A stretch of DNA of 38,255 nucleotides from a virus: positions 1-38,255 of IMG/VR virus record IMGVR_UViG_3300031825_000378; one strand, given 5' to 3'. The translations under genes and the position numbers were made by a program. Positions 5,478-32,204 of this stretch are shown piece by piece. The notes under the pieces were generated by a model that was not told the DNA's origin, searched no databases, and worked only from the letters and a program-made list of their open reading frames with translations. Each line of letters begins with the position of its first letter. Positions within the stretch are counted from its first letter, which is position 1.

Positions 5478-5843
5478 ATGAGAAAGGTTGTTTTGACCGT
5501 ACTGGCCTTAACGTGCATGTCCGCGAACGCGGAAGAGGTCTACATGCCGCGCAACTACCAGCTCAAGGTCGGCCAGGTGTTTGAAGACAAATTCCCGACG
5601 ATTTACTACATCAAGCAACCCTGCGGCTTGCCTTTGGTGAACAAGGAGCACATGCGCAAGTACACCTCGTTCCGAGGCGTGCTGGACGTCGGCTGCTGGG
5701 GCGAAACTATCGATGGAGATGTATTCACCGTCGTGCCCAAGATGGCATCCTCAACAATGCCAAAGAAGCTCTTGATGCGTGTCGATACGGTAGGAGACGG
5801 GAAGTTCAAAGTGCTTGACCTTCCGAGGCTTCAAGTTCCCTAA
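5478..5843 (+). CDS. exported moron protein on the opposite strand
   Basis: A 121-aa protein read against the whole surrounding late operon. Residues 1-18 form a signal peptide (MRKVVLTVLALTCMSANA, cleavage before EE). The mature part has Cys in QPCGLP and DVGCWG that could form a disulfide. It starts 10 nt beyond the spike start, head to head, and overlaps the hub stop by 4 nt. The start at 5478 gives a normal signal peptide; an ATG at 5457 is in frame. No family is recognised. Orientation and export suggest a lysogenic-conversion (moron) gene, which is inference. Confidence 0.7.
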   Translation: MRKVVLTVLALTCMSANAEEVYMPRNYQLKVGQVFEDKFPTIYYIKQPCGLPLVNKEHMRKYTSFRGVLDVGCWGETIDGDVFTVVPKMASSTMPKKLLMRVDTVGDGKFKVLDLPRLQVP

Positions 5844-6862
5844 AGATTGGTCTTTACGATCGCCAGCGCTGGGTCCACAACTTCGCCTTGCCGCACGAAG
5901 CTTCTAAAAGCCGTCACATCGGCGGCCAAGCACACGACCTCTGTGTACCAGTCGTTGCCCCGCGTATCTCCCCAGTGCTCGGCCAGCATCACGTAATACA
6001 GCCCCTCGTCGTTCAGAGCACTCTGCATTTCTATATTGCCATTCTCGCTCTGCTGCTTGATGTCTGGGTTGTACTCGTATAGTTGGATCGCCTCGTTCTT
6101 CAGCTGAATCAGCGTCCCGATCTTGACACTGGGATTCAGCAACATACGCGCTGTAATGCCGTTCGAAGTCTGCTCGGGCAAGCCGACCAGCCCAGTCTGA
6201 GGACTGATCACCGGTATGTCGCCAGGGTTGTAGGACGTTTCAGGCCAGAGGACTGCCTTACCATCCTGGATACTCCACACCGACTGCGTAGTCCTGGCCA
6301 CCCCCTCCATGAACTTTCGCGCCAGGCCAAACATCACTTTTCCTCGGGCGAGCCTCTGCTCAGTGAGGAACGCCATGTACCCGCGAGTAACACCCTTTTT
6401 TTCCATGGCCTTCATGGATGCATCCACCACGTCCCTCATCGTGGCGCCGGCCGCTAGGGTCTGGTTCACAAAACCAAAGTTGTATGCGCTGTCGCCGTCG
6501 GCGGCTGTGATGTCAACGTAGGTGTCGGTCTGGTTCTCTCGCCCGATCCGGACCTGAATGATGGTGCCATCGAAGATGATGCCGTAGTTGCCCTCATACC
6601 CGGCTTGCAGAACGACACGGGTGAATTCCTTCATAGTGCGCAGCGCCGTCTGCTCGGAAACGTTGTAGACACGAACGCGCAATGTGTTCGGCGTCTGGGT
6701 ATCGCCGCGCTTGATACGAAAGATGAAGCGCAGATCGGACAGGTCCAGCGCATCTTCGGTGCCGACGATCAGCGAGGCCTCGCGGATCCATTGTTCGGTG
6801 TCTTCGGCTGCCGTGACGTCGTCGCCGTAGGTGGTGATGGCGGGTAGTTCTTGAAAGGACAT
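5840..6862 (-). CDS. baseplate hub protein (gpD/gp27-like role)
   Basis: A 340-aa protein, beta-rich, with a DLRFIFRIKRGDTQTPNTL start region and a GYEGNYGIIFDGTIIQVR segment, typical of the conserved phage protein that forms the baseplate hub in this myovirus type. It would ring the tube end above the spike. AAGGA lies before the ATG. Between it and the preceding gene is a cUUCGg terminator, so the hub either has its own promoter or needs read-through. Assignment is from context and overall similarity. Confidence 0.75.
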   Translation of the reverse strand: MSFQELPAITTYGDDVTAAEDTEQWIREASLIVGTEDALDLSDLRFIFRIKRGDTQTPNTLRVRVYNVSEQTALRTMKEFTRVVLQAGYEGNYGIIFDGTIIQVRIGRENQTDTYVDITAADGDSAYNFGFVNQTLAAGATMRDVVDASMKAMEKKGVTRGYMAFLTEQRLARGKVMFGLARKFMEGVARTTQSVWSIQDGKAVLWPETSYNPGDIPVISPQTGLVGLPEQTSNGITARMLLNPSVKIGTLIQLKNEAIQLYEYNPDIKQQSENGNIEMQSALNDEGLYYVMLAEHWGDTRGNDWYTEVVCLAADVTAFRSFVRQGEVVDPALAIVKTNL

Positions 6863-6938: not shown

Positions 6939-7487
6939 CTATTCCTGAGGCTTTGGGGGCCTACCGGCGGCTCTTTCACCGGGGGTTGGCCCAACTCGGT
7001 TTCTAACGGCCTGCACCATTCCAAGAACAGGCAGGGATACAAGCGCCACGGGTATCAACCAGTACCATCGAGAGGTCACGCCGTACGCCACACCCACGTA
7101 GGCAGTCGTGGCGGCAGCCAGCAAAGCGATCGCGGAAACAGCTGCCCCCAGGAGTTGGCCAGTCTTGTCGCTCGCAAAAATGCCGGATAGCCTGTCCCCC
7201 TCGATCCGGGTCAACGTTTGCCGATGCGCGATATCGGATTCAAGTTGCTGACGCTCCATCTCGCGCCGGTGTGCAGCCTCACCCTCCGCCATTGCAATAA
7301 TGCGGTCTGCGGCGCCAGGGGAAAGCTGATCGTACTGGCGGAGAAGTTCAGGCGGGGGTAACGGACCCTGATGAAACTGGGCCTGCATCATCATCTGTTG
7401 ATGAACGACCTCGCTTGATTGCTGACCGATCGGACGAGGTGGTGGCTGAACGCTGGCGCGGTGGTTCTGCTTACCGCGAGCCATCAT
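6939..7487 (-). CDS. DUF2335 membrane protein
   Basis: A 182-aa predicted inner-membrane protein. The N-terminal part carries the DUF2335 signature (FHQGPLPPPELLRQYDQL followed by AADRIIAMAEGEAAHR), then a helical segment, then two transmembrane helices (about residues 110-130 and 137-157) and a Pro/Arg-rich tail. The family is common in prophages and mobile regions; its function is unknown. It is the last gene of the module that starts with the antirepressor and is closed by a terminator. Confidence 0.8.
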   Translation of the reverse strand: MMARGKQNHRASVQPPPRPIGQQSSEVVHQQMMMQAQFHQGPLPPPELLRQYDQLSPGAADRIIAMAEGEAAHRREMERQQLESDIAHRQTLTRIEGDRLSGIFASDKTGQLLGAAVSAIALLAAATTAYVGVAYGVTSRWYWLIPVALVSLPVLGMVQAVRNRVGPTPGERAAGRPPKPQE

Positions 7488-8336: not shown

Positions 8337-8668
8337 GGTTCCTCCTTCTCGACCTGTCCAGAACATAATGACAAATCGCTGGGGGTAGATTCAAGTCCGG
8401 ACTGCAGCCGCCCTTCGCGGTTGACTTCAACCATGTGGCGCAGGACCTGATCCAGCACGGCGTAGTACAGCCAAACCAGTTCCGCGCACGCGCCATTCGG
8501 CAGAGCTGCTTTCAAGAGAGAGAACGCCTTGTGCGGCTGGGCATACGACTGTTGTGCCACATCATTGAGGATGCGAGCTTGGCTCTCGCGCTCGGCAAAC
8601 GCTTGGAACAAGGCCATATCGAATTCCATGTGCCCGGCCGGTGGCTGATAGTGCGTCGATGCGCTCAT
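8324..8668 (-). CDS. hypothetical protein coupled to antirepressor
   Basis: A 114-aa, mostly helical protein (MALFQAFAERESQARIL, then ELVWLYYAVLDQVLRHMVEV). Its ATG overlaps the antirepressor stop (ATGA), so it is translated with it. No family assignment. Position suggests a role in the induction pathway, which is inference only. Confidence 0.65.
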   Translation of the reverse strand: MSASTHYQPPAGHMEFDMALFQAFAERESQARILNDVAQQSYAQPHKAFSLLKAALPNGACAELVWLYYAVLDQVLRHMVEVNREGRLQSGLESTPSDLSLCSGQVEKEEPCQP

Positions 8669-9318
8669 TTCAAGAATTCCACGCCCAGAAGTGGCAATTG
8701 CGAAGGCTCGCCGTACAGCTTGAGTTGGTTGTCTTCGATGCGCTGCATATCCGCCGCCGTCTCGCCATTGGATTTCAGGCGGCCGCTGAATCCGAGCGTC
8801 TCGCTGATCTGCAGCACCGTCATCCCGCTCAATCGCTTGACGCCGATCCACCGGTTCAACGCGCCATACACCTTGGAAAGCGCAATCCTACGAACAGCTG
8901 CTATGTCGATCGCATCATGGTGTAGGGGTGCCCGGTCCAGCATTGTGCTGCGCCGGTCGCGGTTGCTGAAGTAGCTGTCCTCGAGTAGCTCAAACACGTC
9001 CCAGGCCTTGTCCGTCTCCAACATTTTGGCGTGCCGGGCAGCGCCACGCTCTGTCCACAGAATCAGCGACCGGGCTCTCGCACCGACAACAGGGTCAGAA
9101 TGGCTGACCCAGACAGCTTTGAAATCGTGAAGATCCTGCCCGGCCAACAGAAAGAAGTGCTTCCCTTCGACAAAGCGGGTCTTGTTGCTGTTGAAATTGC
9201 TCTTGATGTTGGTCGGCGCCGTTCCGTAGAGCGAGGCTAGGCATTCGCTCGTCACAACCGGCACACCCTTCCACGCTACGCGCGGCAGCTTCTGAGGGGT
9301 AACAGTGACGGAGGTCAT
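8665..9318 (-). CDS. ORF6N-domain antirepressor
   Basis: A 217-aa protein. Residues about 15-105 match the ORF6N domain (VAWKGVPVVTSECLASLYGT, then the FVEGKHFFLLAG segment) found at the N-terminus of phage antirepressors; the C-terminal half is helical and variable. It follows the Arc-like gene with an ATGA overlap and has AGGAGG before its ATG, the same arc-ant order as P22 immI. By analogy it would inactivate a prophage repressor; which one (CI or the Mnt-like protein) cannot be told from sequence. Confidence 0.8.
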   Translation of the reverse strand: MTSVTVTPQKLPRVAWKGVPVVTSECLASLYGTAPTNIKSNFNSNKTRFVEGKHFFLLAGQDLHDFKAVWVSHSDPVVGARARSLILWTERGAARHAKMLETDKAWDVFELLEDSYFSNRDRRSTMLDRAPLHHDAIDIAAVRRIALSKVYGALNRWIGVKRLSGMTVLQISETLGFSGRLKSNGETAADMQRIEDNQLKLYGEPSQLPLLGVEFLK

Positions 9319-9479
9319 TGGCGGGCCTCCTGGGGTTGTTCGGCTTGGCGGCTTTCCTCCAGCCGTTTGGTGATTTCCGCGTTCAGACTCCGGAAGTTGC
9401 GCTGCGCCTGGTCGGTGAGCCAAATCTTCAGGGTGACCGGCAGACGAAGCGGGTAGGAAACGGCTTGAGGGGTGTTCAT
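9315..9479 (-). CDS. Arc-like ribbon-helix-helix repressor
   Basis: A 54-aa protein with a short basic/hydrophobic strand (YPLRLPVTLKIWLTDQA) followed by two helices ending in RSLNAEITKRLEES, the Arc/MetJ ribbon-helix-helix pattern. P22 Arc has 53 residues. It is the first gene after the operator array and would dampen its own promoter and antirepressor synthesis. GGAGA lies before the ATG. Confidence 0.85.
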   Translation of the reverse strand: MNTPQAVSYPLRLPVTLKIWLTDQAQRNFRSLNAEITKRLEESRQAEQPQEARQ

Positions 9480-9494
9480 GGGTTCTCCATTAGA

Positions 9495-9509
9495 ATGGCT
9501 CAGTGCCAT
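9495..9509. promoter_or_regulatory. immI-like operator site 1
   Basis: ATGGCTCAGTGCCAT, a 15-bp site with perfect 5-bp arms. It lies just downstream of the predicted start of the arc-ant transcript, so a bound repressor would block that promoter. A degenerate reversed copy overlaps its right side. Confidence 0.7.
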
Positions 9510-9516
9510 AGAGCCC

Positions 9517-9546
9517 ATCATATGGCTCAGAGCCACCTAGAGTCCA
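9517..9546 (-). promoter_or_regulatory. predicted arc-ant promoter
   Basis: Minus strand: TGGACT (-35, 9546-9541), 18 bp, TATGAT (-10, 9522-9517), giving a start near 9510 and a leader of about 30 nt to the Arc ATG. Operator 2 fills the spacer. Confidence 0.55.
9522..9536. promoter_or_regulatory. immI-like operator site 2
   Basis: ATGGCTCAGAGCCAC; its core TGGCTCAGAGCCA is a perfect 13-bp palindrome. It sits between -10 and -35 of the predicted arc-ant promoter. Confidence 0.7.
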
Positions 9547-9554
9547 GTCGATAT

Positions 9555-9569
9555 ATGGCTCATAGCCAT
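9555..9569. promoter_or_regulatory. immI-like operator site 3
   Basis: ATGGCTCATAGCCAT with perfect 5-bp arms. It lies just upstream of the repressor promoter and of the arc-ant -35, so it could serve either promoter. Confidence 0.7.
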
Positions 9570-9580
9570 TGTATTTTTCT

Positions 9581-9595
9581 ATGGCTCTATGCCAT
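9581..9595. promoter_or_regulatory. immI-like operator site 4
   Basis: ATGGCTCTATGCCAT with perfect 5-bp arms. It overlaps the -10 (TATGAT, 9595-9600) of the Mnt-like gene, consistent with autoregulation. Confidence 0.7.
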
Positions 9596-9606
9596 ATGAT
9601 TCGATC

Positions 9607-10341
9607 ATGAACGAAGAACGCAAACCCCAGTCTGCCGATAAGTACATCATTCGCTTCCCTGACGGCATGCGCGATCAAATCGCTGAGGCCGCAAAGAAGA
9701 ACGGGCGAAGCATGAATGCCGAGATTATTCAGCGGCTGGAACACAGTTTCACCCCCTGGCAGGAACGCCCGTGGGAAGAGCGCATGGTGACCGACGTAAA
9801 CCGCGCCATGCTGAAGCTGCTGACGAAGGACGAGTACGGCATGCTCCTGGATCGCGTGAAGGCAGCCGGCGGCGCTGATACGGTTAACGGGTACCGAGCC
9901 GCAGTTGTACGCTCGGACGACGACTTGCAGCCTCCAATCCCCGACGGCCCTCGCCTGATGGAGATGGTGGCCAGCCTACCCCCGTCCGAATCAGAGAAAG
10001 ACGCGATAGCAACGCAGCTCGCTCTGGCGGTGCTGCGCCTGACCGGCAAACTGCCAGAAGGCTCGCACGATGGACCTGTCCTAATCCAAACTTCGCGCGA
10101 CGCTCTCTTGAAGCCGCTGGAGACGGTACGGCACATCGCCGAAAGCGGCCAAATTCGTTCCCGTACCCCGAAGATCCCCGGCCAGAACGCGCCTAAGGAA
10201 GGCTTGGGCGCCGCTCCAAAGGCTGAAAAACCCAAGAAGGAAAAGCCCGTAATCACCAAGAAGAAGGTGTTCGAGAAAGATGCGGGCGCAGAACCGATGA
10301 AGTTCGACCACACAACGAAGCCCGACCGCGGCGACAAGTAG
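9607..10341 (+). CDS. enlarged Mnt-like ribbon-helix-helix repressor
   Basis: A 244-aa protein. Residues about 10-50 form an Arc/Mnt-type ribbon-helix-helix (KYIIRFPDGMRDQIAEAAKK, then RSMNAEIIQRLEHSF). P22 Mnt is only about 82 aa; the extra about 150 residues here have no recognised domain and end in a Lys/Pro-rich tail (KAEKPKKEKPVITKKKV). It diverges from the Arc-like gene across the four operators. The ATG at 9607 has no ribosome binding site and lies 7 nt after a TATGAT -10, so a leaderless message is likely. An in-frame ATG at 9589 overlaps the operator and is less likely. Confidence 0.8.
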   Translation: MNEERKPQSADKYIIRFPDGMRDQIAEAAKKNGRSMNAEIIQRLEHSFTPWQERPWEERMVTDVNRAMLKLLTKDEYGMLLDRVKAAGGADTVNGYRAAVVRSDDDLQPPIPDGPRLMEMVASLPPSESEKDAIATQLALAVLRLTGKLPEGSHDGPVLIQTSRDALLKPLETVRHIAESGQIRSRTPKIPGQNAPKEGLGAAPKAEKPKKEKPVITKKKVFEKDAGAEPMKFDHTTKPDRGDK

Positions 10342-10659: not shown

Positions 10660-11262
10660 TCAACCTCCAATAGAACTGGGAACCGGCAGCGCCCCGCCTG
10701 GTGCCGGCGTGCCTGGCAGGGGCGCCTTTGCTCCCTTGTTCTCCGTCTCCGCGGTGGCTGCCGGGTCTTCCTGCACATCCCGCGGAGGCAGGGTCGTCGC
10801 CTTCGTCTTGACGATAATCACCTCGCGCAAGGTCGCCGTGACCATCAGCGCGCCAGACGTCTTATCGTCGTTGATCACCATCAGGCTCTGGATGAGCATG
10901 TTCGAGTACTGCCGCCGGCAGGTGACCAGGTCGAACGGCTTGCGGGACTCCTGCAGGGCCAGCAGCTGGGAGTAGACGGCGTCCACGTAGGTAGACGTCG
11001 CCGGCATGCCGTTGTTCACCTTGGCCGGCGTCCCACCGAGGATGGCCGTGTAGTCGGAGTTGCTCCATCCACATTTGATGATTACCTCGTTGGGCCGCTT
11101 GAACGCATGATCGTTGATGTTGGCGCCGTTCTCGACGGGATGCTCCGTGATGGTGAGCTCGTCGTGGTAGACCTCTTCCAGCGTGGCCGATATCGTGATG
11201 TCGCCGATCTTCTTCGACGACAGCAGGATCATGTCCAGGCCCAGCGAGTCGATAATGCTCAT
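10660..11262 (-). CDS. Dit-like tail / baseplate protein
   Basis: A 200-aa protein. The N-terminal about 150 residues (GDITISATLEEVYHDELTIT, then the HAFKRPNEVIIKCGWSNSD segment) fit the N-terminal domain of Dit-like phage tail proteins; the C-terminus is a Pro/Ala-rich tail. Its ATG overlaps the tape-measure stop (ATGA), the expected place for the protein joining tube to baseplate. Confidence 0.75.
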   Translation of the reverse strand: MSIIDSLGLDMILLSSKKIGDITISATLEEVYHDELTITEHPVENGANINDHAFKRPNEVIIKCGWSNSDYTAILGGTPAKVNNGMPATSTYVDAVYSQLLALQESRKPFDLVTCRRQYSNMLIQSLMVINDDKTSGALMVTATLREVIIVKTKATTLPPRDVQEDPAATAETENKGAKAPLPGTPAPGGALPVPSSIGG

Positions 11263-13199
11263 CCTTGTGCCCCACCGATGGTTCGTACCGCCGCGTCATT
11301 GACGCGCCCTTGCTCGCTGGCCACTGCTTCAGCAACCGCCATCGGATCGCGGGCGCCGCTGACGTAAATGGTGGTGTTGGCGCTCATCGAAACAGCCTTC
11401 GATTTATCTGCGGTGACTGCGCGGCCCTGGTCGGCCCCGGCGTAGTACCCCTGCCACGGCTGTTGGTCCAGCCTGCTGAGCACGTCGCGGTAGTACTTCT
11501 GCGATTCGGCCGGCATACCGTCCAGGCCAAGTTTGCCAAGGTTCCCGATGCCGCCGTTGTAGGCCGCCAGCGCCTTCTTAAGATCACCGCCAGTCTGCCC
11601 AAGCAACCATTTCAGGTAGCGTGCCGCGGCGTTGGCTGACTGCTCCAGGTCATTCGGATCCTTGAGCCCCACTTCCTTGGCCGTCGCCGGCATGAATTGG
11701 AAATGGCCCTCCGCCCCGGCCGGAGACAGCATGTTCTTGCCGCGTCCCGATTCCTGCAGCCAAACGCTGTCCAGCAAGCCCTGAGGCAAGCCGTATTGCT
11801 TCTCCAGGTTGTCGAACAAGGCCCCCGCCATGGGGTTCGGTGGAGCGCTGATTTGAGGGGTGGGAGCAGGTGCGGCGGCCGGCGTAGGCGCGGGCACTGG
11901 CGCCGGTACGGCTTTCAACTGCTCAAGCTTCTTTGTGTACTCGGCGATATCCCGCTCCAGCGGAATCTTCTCTGCCTGGTACTTCGCGGCATTGCGCGGA
12001 TCCAGTTCGATCAGCTCATCCTTCTCCTTGATCCGAGCCTGACGGTCGGCAATGCGCTGCTTGATGCCCTCTTCCGTGCCGGTCATCTGGTGCTGCACGT
12101 AGGCCCCCCCGATGGCTATAGGAGCGCCGATAGCTGCCGCAGCCAGTGCGGTCGTGCCGATCGTCGCGCCAGCAGCTACGCCAGCGCCAGCTGCCGCAGC
12201 ACCACCCGCCGCCGCTCCGGCCTGGGCTGCCGCTGCCGCCCCGCCCACACCACGCAGTGCTGCCGATAGCTTCCCAAGGCCACTCAGGATTTGGAAGCCA
12301 CCAAGGGCCTTCAGCGCGGCCACCGCCAGCAAGATGTTGGTCGTCCAGCCGTTGGTTGCCTTGTCCCACTCGACAAACTTCTCGATGACGGCGCCCAGGA
12401 CGGGCAAGATCGTCTCAGCCATCCGCAGTACAACCTGGGCCACGTCGGAAATGCGCTTTGCGATTTCCGGCGCATTGTCCTTGAACCATGCCGAGAACCG
12501 CTTCAGCTCAGGCCCGACCTTCTGCTGCAGGTCCGCCTGGATCAGCGTGAACATGTTGTCCGCAGTGCGGCCCAGCTCGCGGATCGAGTTCATCAGCTCG
12601 TGGGCGTCTTTAGCCGCCCGCGACATGCCGTTGTTCTCGGACTCCTTACGGATCTGCTGCAGGCGTTCGACGAAAGCCGGATCCCGCATTGCGAGCATCA
12701 GGTTCTCATCGATCCCGAGCACACTGCTGTACTGGCTGGCCAGCCACGTGGGCTTTGCGGCCATCACGCGCCCGATGTCCGCGACGAGGTCGACCGTGTC
12801 GCGCAGATTGCCGTTGGCATCCCGCGTCTGGACTCCCAAGCTGGCGATGTACGACTCGCCCGCTGGGTTGTTCCGCATGAACTTGGCGATAGCCTCCACA
12901 CTGCCCAGGGCGACGTCGGCGGACACGCCGAAATCGCGCGCCGCGCCACCGAGCGCCCGCAGGCTATTCTCGGTGGCGCCGACGCGACGGCCGACGAAAT
13001 ACAGGCTCTCGATCTTGGACGCGAAGCCGGCGACGCTGGCGCCGATGGTCAAGGCGGCGCCCTGGATGGTTGCCACCAGGCGCACAACGCCCTTCGTGGA
13101 ATCCTCGACCCCCTCCTTGAAGGTCTTGAGCCCCTTCTGGTCGACCTTGAAGCCAAGGGCGACCAGGAATTCGCGGATCACTTCAGCGTTGCCGGCCAT
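11259..13199 (-). CDS. tape measure protein with SLT transglycosylase domain
   Basis: A 646-aa protein that sets tail length. After an N-terminal helical region come hydrophobic Ala/Gly-rich segments (about 295-370), a charged helix, a Pro-rich linker (VPAPVPAPTPAAAPAPTP) and, at about 455-560, a lysozyme-like transglycosylase domain with the catalytic Glu in WLQESGRG, then GHFQFMPATAKEVG and AAYNGG. The domain would open peptidoglycan during DNA entry. The start at 13199 has GGGAAGAAGG upstream; it overlaps the frameshift product's end by 17 nt. Confidence 0.9.
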   Translation of the reverse strand: MAGNAEVIREFLVALGFKVDQKGLKTFKEGVEDSTKGVVRLVATIQGAALTIGASVAGFASKIESLYFVGRRVGATENSLRALGGAARDFGVSADVALGSVEAIAKFMRNNPAGESYIASLGVQTRDANGNLRDTVDLVADIGRVMAAKPTWLASQYSSVLGIDENLMLAMRDPAFVERLQQIRKESENNGMSRAAKDAHELMNSIRELGRTADNMFTLIQADLQQKVGPELKRFSAWFKDNAPEIAKRISDVAQVVLRMAETILPVLGAVIEKFVEWDKATNGWTTNILLAVAALKALGGFQILSGLGKLSAALRGVGGAAAAAQAGAAAGGAAAAGAGVAAGATIGTTALAAAAIGAPIAIGGAYVQHQMTGTEEGIKQRIADRQARIKEKDELIELDPRNAAKYQAEKIPLERDIAEYTKKLEQLKAVPAPVPAPTPAAAPAPTPQISAPPNPMAGALFDNLEKQYGLPQGLLDSVWLQESGRGKNMLSPAGAEGHFQFMPATAKEVGLKDPNDLEQSANAAARYLKWLLGQTGGDLKKALAAYNGGIGNLGKLGLDGMPAESQKYYRDVLSRLDQQPWQGYYAGADQGRAVTADKSKAVSMSANTTIYVSGARDPMAVAEAVASEQGRVNDAAVRTIGGAQG

Positions 13200-13431
13200 T
13201 GCCTTCTTCCCTTGCCCGCCGCGCGAGCACTTCATTGTCAGCCTGCACGGCCGCCGCGTCGTTCATGAGCGCGATGTCGGCCAGGTCGATCGAGCCGTCC
13301 AGCAGCTTGTCGTAGTGGATGTGACCGCGCAGGACTGGCGCCAGCAGCCAATCCTCGCCGTCCGGCAGGCTGGCCCAGGCTATTGCGCTTCGGCCGGCCC
13401 GCTCCCTTGGCTGGTAAGCAGGCCTTGCATA
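13183..13431 (-). CDS. C-terminal extension of tail chaperone (-1 frame)
   Basis: An 82-codon reading frame (from YARPAYQPRE) with protein-like content: LPDGEDWLLAPVLRGHIHYD and IDLADIALMNDAA, resembling DUF6889-type phage proteins that sit between tail chaperone and tape measure. It has no convincing own start codon or RBS. It is reached from the chaperone gene by a -1 shift at the CCCTTTT heptamer, giving a 212-aa fusion. An independent non-ATG start (for example CTG) is the alternative. Confidence 0.75.
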   Translation of the reverse strand, partial: YARPAYQPRERAGRSAIAWASLPDGEDWLLAPVLRGHIHYDKLLDGSIDLADIALMNDAAAVQADNEVLARRAREEGNGRQR

Positions 13432-14269: not shown

Positions 14270-15745
14270 TTATCGGTTGACCGTGACCAGAACGTCGACG
14301 GTATGAATGGCGCCCGCCTCCTTGGCGGCGACCTGGAACGGAACGGCCTTGCGCGCCTCGCGGTCGGCCTGCGACTGCGTAGCGATCGCCGGCGCGTAGA
14401 CGTAGTAGCCCTTGGCCAGCGTCTCGCCCTGCTTCAGCGCGCCGAAACCTCCAGAGTTCCACACACCTGGCGCCAGGTAGCCGTTGTTGACCGCGGCTTC
14501 GCAGGCCGCCTCGATAACCGAGGCGATCAATTGATTGCCAGCGTCAGTCTGGGGCACTTTCGTGGGGCTGGTGTACAGCAGGTTGTAGACGTCCGTCTGC
14601 ACACGGTTGCGGAACCAAATCGCGTTGTAGACCGAGTCGATGAAGATCCCGCTGGGCGTCACGCCGTACTGGATGATGGCCGTATCGTTGTCGTAGGCCA
14701 CGAACACGTTGCAGCGTTTGGCCTCCAATGTGTTGGCCTGCGTGCTCGTCAACGTCTCGGCCACAATCCCCGGCTCCTGCTTGTACATGAGCGTGATCGT
14801 GGTGTTGTTGGCGTTGAAGTTCACCGTCAACAGACGCCCCAGCAGAGAGGCGGCGGCATACGAATTGCTGCTCGAGAACTGCACCATCGAGTACTTGTAG
14901 CTGAGCGCCTTGAACTTGCTCGCGATATCGGTCGTGGAGACAGGATCCAGAACCTGGGCGGCCTTCGTGCTGACCGCGTACAGGTGGCGCTGATCGGCCT
15001 CGATCAATGCAGCCACCTCCAGATGGTCGCTGTCTTCCATAGCGGCATCGGCGAAGGTCAGGCCCAGGAACTTGTTGGCGAAACGATCCAGGAACACCGC
15101 CACGGCATCGACAGGGCTTTCTGCGACGATGCCAGCCTCAGGCGCACTAGCTTGCGTCGAGGTCAACCCGAGCATGGCGGAAACGTCGGTACCCGTTGCC
15201 GGGGCGGTCGCGTAGCCAATGGTCGAAGCAACGCCCGTCGTGTCGGAGGTAACCACAAACTGCGATCCATTCCAGACCACCGCCGCACCGGTCAGCGCGG
15301 TGTCGATCTTGCTGGCTACGCCATTGAGATTGGTCTCCGTCGAAAAGTCCAGGGCAGCGACGGTTTTTTCCGCCCCGTCGACCTGAATCTTGAAGCCACC
15401 AGCCGTCACGGCGTTCCATGCCGCCATGTCTTTCTGAGCGGCGGACAGCACGGCGCCGCGAAGCGAACCCGCACTGGCGGTCTTGGCCCAACGGCCGATA
15501 TACACCTGGGCCGGCTGGGGCGTTTGCTGGAAGTAAAGTGCCGCGGCCAGATACTCGGGAGCAGTCGTCCCGAAATCCGCCGCGACGGCATCGATGTCCC
15601 CATACGCCCGCATGCGCTCGCCCGTGCCGATGACGGGAGAAGCGCCCAGAAGCAGCGCGGTGTTCAAGTTCGCGCCCTGGGCGGCCAGGGGTGACATGTT
15701 GATCGATACGTTGATCAGACGAGATACGGGCAGTCCATTGGCCAT
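14270..15745 (-). CDS. contractile tail sheath, DUF3383 family
   Basis: A 490-aa protein of the DUF3383 sheath family (start [34 protein letters not shown]; conserved C-terminal region with [20 protein letters not shown]). Its presence shows a contractile tail. The ATG at 15745 has AGAGGA upstream and lies 17 nt after a hairpin/U-tract. It is one of the most highly made late proteins in this phage type. Confidence 0.9.
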
Positions 15746-15762
15746 GGGATCCTCTGCGATCA

Positions 15763-15790
15763 GAAAAAGAAAAGCCACCCGGAGGCGGCT
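15763..15790 (-). terminator. hairpin with U-tract upstream of sheath gene
   Basis: Minus-strand stem AGCCGCC/GGTGGCT (one mismatch) with UCCG loop, then TTTTCTTTTTC. It separates the tail-terminator gene from the sheath gene. Confidence 0.65.
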
Positions 15791-31095: not shown

Positions 31096-31112
31096 GTTAG
31101 GCAATGCTTAAT
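31096..31112. promoter_or_regulatory. operator OR3
   Basis: GTTAGGCAATGCTTAAT matches the palindrome at 12 of 17 positions and covers the CI start codon. Binding here would shut off CI synthesis. Confidence 0.65.
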
Positions 31113-32204
31113 GGAACTGACCTCGGAGCTGCCATTAAGGCAGCCATTGAAAAGAAGATCGCCAGCGGAGCCGTCGCTTCGCAGGCCGCGATCGCACGTC
31201 ATTTCAATGTCAGGCCACCTTCCATCCACGACTGGATAAAGAAGGGCTCGATCTCCAAAGACAAACTCCCGGAGCTGTGGCGCTATTTCTCGGACGTCGT
31301 GGGCCCGGAACATTGGGGCCTAAAGTCTTGGCCAGACATGGGGTCGTCCATAGCATCAGAGTCGGCGCCTCAGCACAAGCCGTGGCCTTTCAAGACGATC
31401 CCCGAAGACCAGATCCATGAGCTACCGGAGTCCCAGCTAAGCGCCCTTGAGGGCGCAATCCAGCTGGCTATCGCCCAGATGAGGCTCGGGATCCAGGTTT
31501 CAGCGCAACCGCTCGCTACGCCGACCCGAGTTTCTGTACCGATTCGTTCGCACAAGCCGGGCGGCCTAGTCGATATGGACCATGCCGACGATCCATTCCC
31601 CATGCGAATCCAAGGCCTCCCCCCTGCCCCGTGGGAAGGCGGAAATACAACACACCAGGCAGAAGCCAATCCCAAGATCCGGATCAGCACCCAAACTGGG
31701 GTGATCGCAAATGTCGGCCCAGGCGAACCTTACGCAGCGAACGACAAGTTCGACAAGGTGCCAGAGATGGCCGACGTGCGGCTTGCCGCCGGCGATGGCA
31801 TCGAGAACCACATCGAGGAACAGACTGGCGTGATGCACTTCCGCCGCTCGTTCCTGCGCGCAGTGGGTGCAGATGCCGGGAAAGCCAGGGTTGTCTACGC
31901 CAAAGGCGATAGCATGGAGCCCATCATTCGTGATGGAGCTGCGCTGCTAGTCGTGCCGAACGAGGATCTGACCGTACGCGACCTCGCCGCGGGCGGCGTC
32001 TACGCCATCAACTACGACGGCAAGATGATCGTGAAGACGGTGACGCGGGATCGCCTGACGAAGCAATGGGTGGCGCGGTCATTCAATCCGGCTTACCCCG
32101 ACATCCCACTTGAGAATGGCACGCCTGTGCGCGTGCTGGGCCAGGTTGTCTGGTCTGGCGCCAGGTTGCGGGATGATGAGGCGGGACAGTGGGTGAGGTC
32201 CTGA
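31104..32204 (+). CDS. CI prophage repressor, S24 autocleaving
   Basis: A 366-aa repressor. Residues about 18-50 are a helix-turn-helix (GAVASQAAIARHFNVRPPSI). The C-terminal S24/LexA domain holds Ser270 in YAKGDSMEPII and Lys311 in MIVKTV, with a probable cleavage bond Ala229-Gly230 in RLAAGDG. RecA-stimulated self-cleavage would induce the prophage. It is long for a CI (lambda 237 aa) because of an about 130-residue linker. The ATG at 31104 lies within OR3, with no RBS. Confidence 0.9.
   Translation: MLNGTDLGAAIKAAIEKKIASGAVASQAAIARHFNVRPPSIHDWIKKGSISKDKLPELWRYFSDVVGPEHWGLKSWPDMGSSIASESAPQHKPWPFKTIPEDQIHELPESQLSALEGAIQLAIAQMRLGIQVSAQPLATPTRVSVPIRSHKPGGLVDMDHADDPFPMRIQGLPPAPWEGGNTTHQAEANPKIRISTQTGVIANVGPGEPYAANDKFDKVPEMADVRLAAGDGIENHIEEQTGVMHFRRSFLRAVGADAGKARVVYAKGDSMEPIIRDGAALLVVPNEDLTVRDLAAGGVYAINYDGKMIVKTVTRDRLTKQWVARSFNPAYPDIPLENGTPVRVLGQVVWSGARLRDDEAGQWVRS

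Follow-up and report, generated by a model that had tools for sequence, protein, structure and literature searches.

The window, which is the whole 38,255-base IMG/VR virus record, carries two divergently oriented genes for ribbon-helix-helix (RHH) proteins, both matching PF03869, that flank a gap of 127 bp (9480-9606). The minus-strand gene, RHH1 (9315..9479), encodes an Arc-like protein of 54 aa (PF03869, E 2.2e-5) with the DNA-reading triplet S-P-R, and its ATG (at 9479) has a Shine-Dalgarno-like GGAGAA upstream. Downstream of RHH1, on the same strand, lies ant (8665..9318), coding for an ORF6N antirepressor-like protein of 217 aa (PF10543, E 1.2e-16; phrog_4792 anti-repressor, E 3.8e-47; the family searches used the longer ORF 8665-9423, and the 217-aa frame was taken from its ATG). 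The stop codon of RHH1 and the start codon of ant overlap as ATGA (9318-9315), with no gap between the genes. The plus-strand gene, RHH2 (9607..10341), encodes 244 aa, with an AmrZ/Arc-type RHH domain at the N-terminus (PF03869, E 3.4e-16; triplet K-I-R) followed by a long C-terminal part without a recognised fold; an AlphaFold model of this protein (5 sequences) was discarded (mean pLDDT 46).

A gene for the baseplate hub (5840-6862) lies on one side of the cassette and one for the tape measure (11259-13235) on the other, with a tail sheath gene further along (14270-15778). Near the cassette, this tail-gene stretch also encodes a DUF2335 membrane protein (6939-7487, minus strand; PF10097, E 6.3e-17). 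A CI-like repressor with a UmuD-like region (31104-32204, plus strand; phrog_4, E 1.9e-32) is encoded far from the cassette and constitutes a candidate target of Ant. DNA similarity of the cassette to known phages was confined to part of ant.

Within the gap, four sites of the form ATGGC-N5-GCCAT start at positions 9495, 9522, 9555 and 9581 (i.e. 27, 33 and 26 bp apart), exactly as a sequence-only reading of this DNA had placed them, between divergent RHH genes. Three of them match ATGGCTCNNNGCCAT exactly, while site 2 differs by ending in CAC, and the palindrome is better written as ATGGC-N5-GCCAT; each 15-bp site comprises two GGC half-sites spaced by about one helical turn. With at most one mismatch in the 10 fixed bases, the pattern occurs nowhere else in the 38,255 bp. 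Dinucleotide shuffling of the window (300 times) yielded on average 2.07 sites, with two or fewer within 110 bp every time, and shuffling of the 127-bp gap (2000 times) never produced four sites (0/2000). The array is more than chance. A repeat search of the gap showed no other repeat family worth noting (one operator type is present, in four copies), and nothing convincing as a separate RHH1 operator was found among the repeats of the gap or, by eye, in 20 intergenic stretches. Two TAGAG(C/T)CC stretches were spotted by eye between the array sites.

The predicted promoter for RHH1-ant (P_left; 9517..9546, minus strand) consists of TGGACT (9546-9541), a spacer of 18 nt and TATGAT (9522-9517), adding up to 9 of 12 consensus bases; a second minus-strand promoter-like match (ATGGCA-N16-TACAAT) spans 9595 to 9568. 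For RHH2 we predict a -10 element TATGAT (P_right; 9595..9600, plus strand) located 6 nt before the ATG at 9607, with a T-rich gap upstream (9570-9580) and no clear -35. The predicted operators, to which no strand is assigned, are arranged around these elements: site 1 (ATGGCTCAGTGCCAT, 9495..9509) falls just downstream of the P_left -10, in the start-site region; site 2 (ATGGCTCAGAGCCAC, 9522..9536) within the spacer between the P_left -35 and -10; site 3 (ATGGCTCATAGCCAT, 9555..9569) upstream of P_right; and site 4 (ATGGCTCTATGCCAT, 9581..9595) takes up the spacer that leads to the P_right -10. The sequence-only reading had proposed that sites 1 and 2 bracket the -10 and spacer of the arc-ant-like operon, which holds when 9546-9517 is taken as P_left (site 2 in the spacer, site 1 past the -10), and that site 4 overlaps the repressor -10, which is correct for the single shared base (9595) and wrong for any wider overlap. 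Its general picture of an operator array next to an arc-ant-like operon, overlapping the promoters, is supported, the promoters themselves being predictions.

The closest solved structure to RHH2 is that of AmrZ from Pseudomonas aeruginosa (3qoq, E 1.7e-10). According to the accessible text of PMC3325190, AmrZ contacts two 5'-GGC half-sites (amrZ1 being GGC-AAAAC-GCC) through Lys18, which reads two G, Arg22, which reads the opposite G, and Val20, which packs on C; changing each GGC of amrZ1 to GTC weakens binding 9.8-fold. The two proteins share the RHH domain, the K-V/I-R contact triplet (DKYIIRFPDGMR in RHH2 vs DKFVVRLPEGMR in AmrZ) and the GGC-N5-GCC operator, found in the window near the promoter of RHH2 itself; the autorepression known for AmrZ would by analogy extend to RHH2. 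RHH1 of the window (S-P-R), in turn, has no counterpart of the lysine that reads GG in AmrZ. AmrZ differs in being a bacterial regulator of virulence genes that lies outside any antirepressor cassette, and the accessible text of PMC3325190 describes no four-site array between divergent RHH genes.

The association between array and gene type was assessed by scanning a collection of viral contigs for pairs of ATGGC-N5-GCCAY sites separated by 8-22 bases, with genes ignored. The pattern was recovered in 61 viral contigs. In 34 of these an RHH gene begins at the array, and in 29 the array separates two divergent RHH genes; a control palindrome of the same bases gave 26 contigs, none of them with an RHH gene. 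In the remaining 27 of the 61 contigs an RHH gene was undetected, and many such matches lie inside ORFs; in six of the pattern contigs lacking a detected RHH gene (L032, L057, L065, L067, L071, L076) the gap between the paired sites contains GTCAAG or its reverse complement CTTGAC, and these are possibly decayed cassettes. After removing two RHH-flanked contigs that have the L029 sequence at the array (L052, L069) and adding the window, 33 arrays were available. All 33 are flanked by an RHH protein with K-[IVM]-R (19 KIR, 13 KVR, 1 KMR), a count that is partly by construction, since whichever flanking protein matched the D-K-type RHH better was named RHH2. The opposite partner, RHH1, could be identified at 28 of these 33 arrays and has 13 different triplets (S-P-R in the window). 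The sampling of close RHH2 relatives by genome scans was thin (5 loci; 6 of 250 genomes; 10 of 369 genomes, with 11 loci), and in the 250 scanned genomes the array pattern appeared in 2, one of them beside 1 of the 6 RHH2 relatives there.

The 33 arrays contain 113 sites scoring at least 8/10, whose neighbour spacings are bimodal: 40 fall at 23-27, 27 at 31-37, only 2 at 28-30, and 11 outside 23-37. As the search itself required one spacing of 23-37, the range carries no evidential weight and the split does (binomial P ~3e-5 if spacings were uniform over 23-37, the arrays not being independent). Four sites at ~26/33/25 recur in 11 of the 33 arrays, the window included, despite differing RHH1 types, and by eye a similar four-place layout written in other letters is seen in L005 (mostly GTC-type sites) and L119 (GGC/AGC-type). 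Read with RHH2 rightward, the layout opens with site 1 and the P_left -10; the P_left spacer, containing site 2, and the P_left -35 follow, then site 3, the T-rich gap and site 4, and finally TANNNT, 5-7 nt and the ATG. Since the last site, TANNNT, 5-7 nt and ATG follow one another in 17 of the 18 arrays examined (of 33), the repressor mRNA looks leaderless.

To remove the bias of a DNA-based choice, loci were selected by protein alone, using an alignment of 13 RHH domains and the best 80 of 521 relatives, from which 12 duplicate upstream regions were removed to leave 68 loci; neither this set nor the held-out one below depends on the better-match labelling of RHH2. GGC half-sites accompanied K[IV]R repressors at 19 of 22 loci and the others at 0 of 46 (Fisher 4.6e-14, overstated because the loci are related). 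RIR went with GCC (6/6) and KMR with GTC (11/13), while KNR gave 0/9 in this half-site grammar. In a smaller protein-selected set (33 loci), GGC-N5-GCC was present upstream of the repressor for 4 of 6 distinct K[VI]R vs 0 of 26 others; two of the four are doubtful (L126, where other phage genes run the same way upstream, and L133, which may be an amrZ gene of the host), and leaving both out gives a p of 0.03. The three rules were then fixed beforehand and applied to 80 viral loci (of 546 relatives) and 9 of 11 genome loci, which, once 34 already-seen loci, 2 duplicates and L229 (no domain detected) had been excluded, amounted to 52 held-out loci. All three rules recovered their half-site preferentially (GGC 6/10 vs 1/42; GCC 3/5 vs 0/47; GTC 5/10 vs 1/42), and the four K[IV]R misses of this set (L220-L223) are K-V-R genome loci with no divergent RHH1 detected. 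Further exceptions are the K[IV]R loci without GGC (L175, L176, L187), together with L134 and L137, and two KMR loci with GGC arrays (L029, L310). Such exceptions show that residues beyond the triplet matter. At L310, a K-M-R RHH2 and a divergent K-I-R RHH1 flank a four-site GGC array, which RHH1 might own. Judging from these pairings, the sequence of the operator repeat appears to be largely predictable from two amino acids of the repressor.

The cassette shares with the immI region of P22 (mnt / arc-ant, NC_002371) a divergent RHH repressor next to a small operon that joins an RHH gene to an antirepressor gene. The accessible part of PMC8022706 places immI between genes 16 and 9 of the late operon, so that a position within late structural genes is also common to both. 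The differences are nevertheless substantial: in P22, Arc and Mnt have a single operator each and the two differ in sequence, whereas the window has four copies of one operator; the P22 promoters overlap, unlike those of the window cassette; P22 has a 68-nt arc-ant gap with sar RNA, in contrast to the ATGA overlap; and the window repressor (244 aa) has AmrZ-like DNA-reading residues and not Mnt-like ones, as in P22. The same divergent gene order beside an antirepressor-type gene was found in phages SPN3UB, GF-2, ST11-VIM1phi8.1, KP12, PhiR5_1, MinM1, Pyei1 and UFJF_PfDIW6 (triplets K-N-R, K-M-R, R-N-R, Q-M-R, R-I-R and Q-N-R), upstream of whose repressors a GGC-N5-GCC array was not found. A literature search that covered few subscription papers returned only the ingredients (P22 immI and GGC recognition by AmrZ); what is identified here is a recurrent module for antirepressor control whose four-site layout is conserved.

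We consider it very likely that the array serves the AmrZ-type repressor RHH2 as its set of operators, within a P22 immI-like cassette in the tail-gene region of a tailed prophage, because the type of array tracks the DNA-reading residues of RHH2. Sequence statistics establish that the array exists, how it is laid out and that it is linked to these residues; binding and repression by RHH2, autoregulation and the target of Ant are what we infer. With RHH2 on sites 1 and 2, the RHH1-ant promoter would be obstructed in its start region and in its -35/-10 spacer, and from sites 3 and 4 RHH2 would act as the repressor of its own promoter, an apparently leaderless one. In the lysogen, ant would hence be silenced and the level of RHH2 held steady. 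Where the infection is new and RHH2 absent, or where RHH2 has been lost, RHH1 and Ant, whose genes overlap by ATGA, would be made together, and Ant would interfere with a lysogeny repressor. RHH1 would act as a second, Arc-like brake with a site of its own, probably limiting ant at this stage as Arc does in P22.

The sequence-only reading had instead suggested that two RHH proteins compete for the one array, as a compact switch; taken as a bistable switch, this would have each protein binding all four sites. Both genes do flank the array, and elsewhere in the family such competition is plausible, given that RHH1 is K[IV]R in 5 of 28 arrays and K/R-[IVLM]-R in 12 of 28. At the window locus, however, RHH1 carries S-P-R, and its relatives in L005 (65% identical) and L007 (41%) adjoin other operator types. 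Moreover, among 51 loci with both proteins, GGC follows K[IV]R in RHH2 at 13/13 vs 0/38, and is linked only weakly to K[IV]R in RHH1 (3/4 vs 10/47, p 0.046), whose triplets vary freely. The mutual information between RHH1 and operator type did exceed that of all 5000 shuffles (kinship ignored), which we read as shared ancestry, as RHH2 alone explains nearly all of it. We therefore rejected competition as the leading model for this locus, where it seems improbable. An equally small likelihood is given to mixed RHH1-RHH2 dimers or a joint complex, with RHH1 as a co-regulator that does not itself read GGC. RHH proteins are intertwined dimers, both are made here from the same control region, and the array stays constant across differing RHH1 proteins; the great diversity of RHH1 across arrays that keep one RHH2 type nonetheless argues against such partnerships.

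Repeated RHH-bound sites also occur in plasmid partition, and a role outside RHH repression could be imagined for the array, for example as a partition (centromere-like) site or as terminator stems, since one array site resembles a weak terminator stem and PHROGs calls two related families (phrog_795, phrog_2685) 'partition protein ATPase'. We find this hardly credible: an antirepressor and an RHH repressor are encoded beside the array, the sites occupy fixed places relative to both predicted promoters, and the label is unreliable, because the P22 record gives Mnt the same name. The name is attached to Mnt-type proteins (among them P22 mnt, L219) and looks like a wrong one that was passed on.

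Beyond the attribution of the array to RHH2, we think it rather probable that these cassettes make up a large family of modules for secondary immunity in phages, with the half-site set by two strand residues (K-[IV] for GGC, R-I for GCC, K-M for GTC, and Q-V often for CGC or AGC) and the arrangement of several sites and two promoters, together with a leaderless repressor message, kept fixed. If so, a phage could move to another immunity type through one or two residue changes accompanied by corresponding changes in the operator, or through transfer of a whole DNA-binding domain onto the conserved C-terminal part. This provides a rule, open to testing, that links an Arc/AmrZ-type phage repressor to the operator it reads, and the 521 and 546 relatives found point to hundreds of natural protein-operator pairs.

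Domain exchange is visible among the relatives of RHH2. The C-terminal tail (motif TPKIPGQNAPKEGLG) is kept in L005, L006, L008, L009, L011 and L107, with the N-terminal part swapped between AmrZ-like RHH, Mnt-like RHH and CI/Cro-like helix-turn-helix domains. A Mnt-like DNA-binding part (Q-N-R) is joined to an RHH2-type C-terminus in L006, L007, L009 and L107, with AAAGCACCGTGCTTT-type sites, and a helix-turn-helix-like domain (read by us from the sequence) is so joined in L008 and L011; in the RHH cases the operator changes along with the DNA-binding domain. The K-N-R repressors of enterobacterial phages (L127, L128, L130, L131) stand outside this half-site grammar, and in three of these four loci repeats such as GGCCATAATGCCACC and TGGCAATATGGCACC were noticed by eye.
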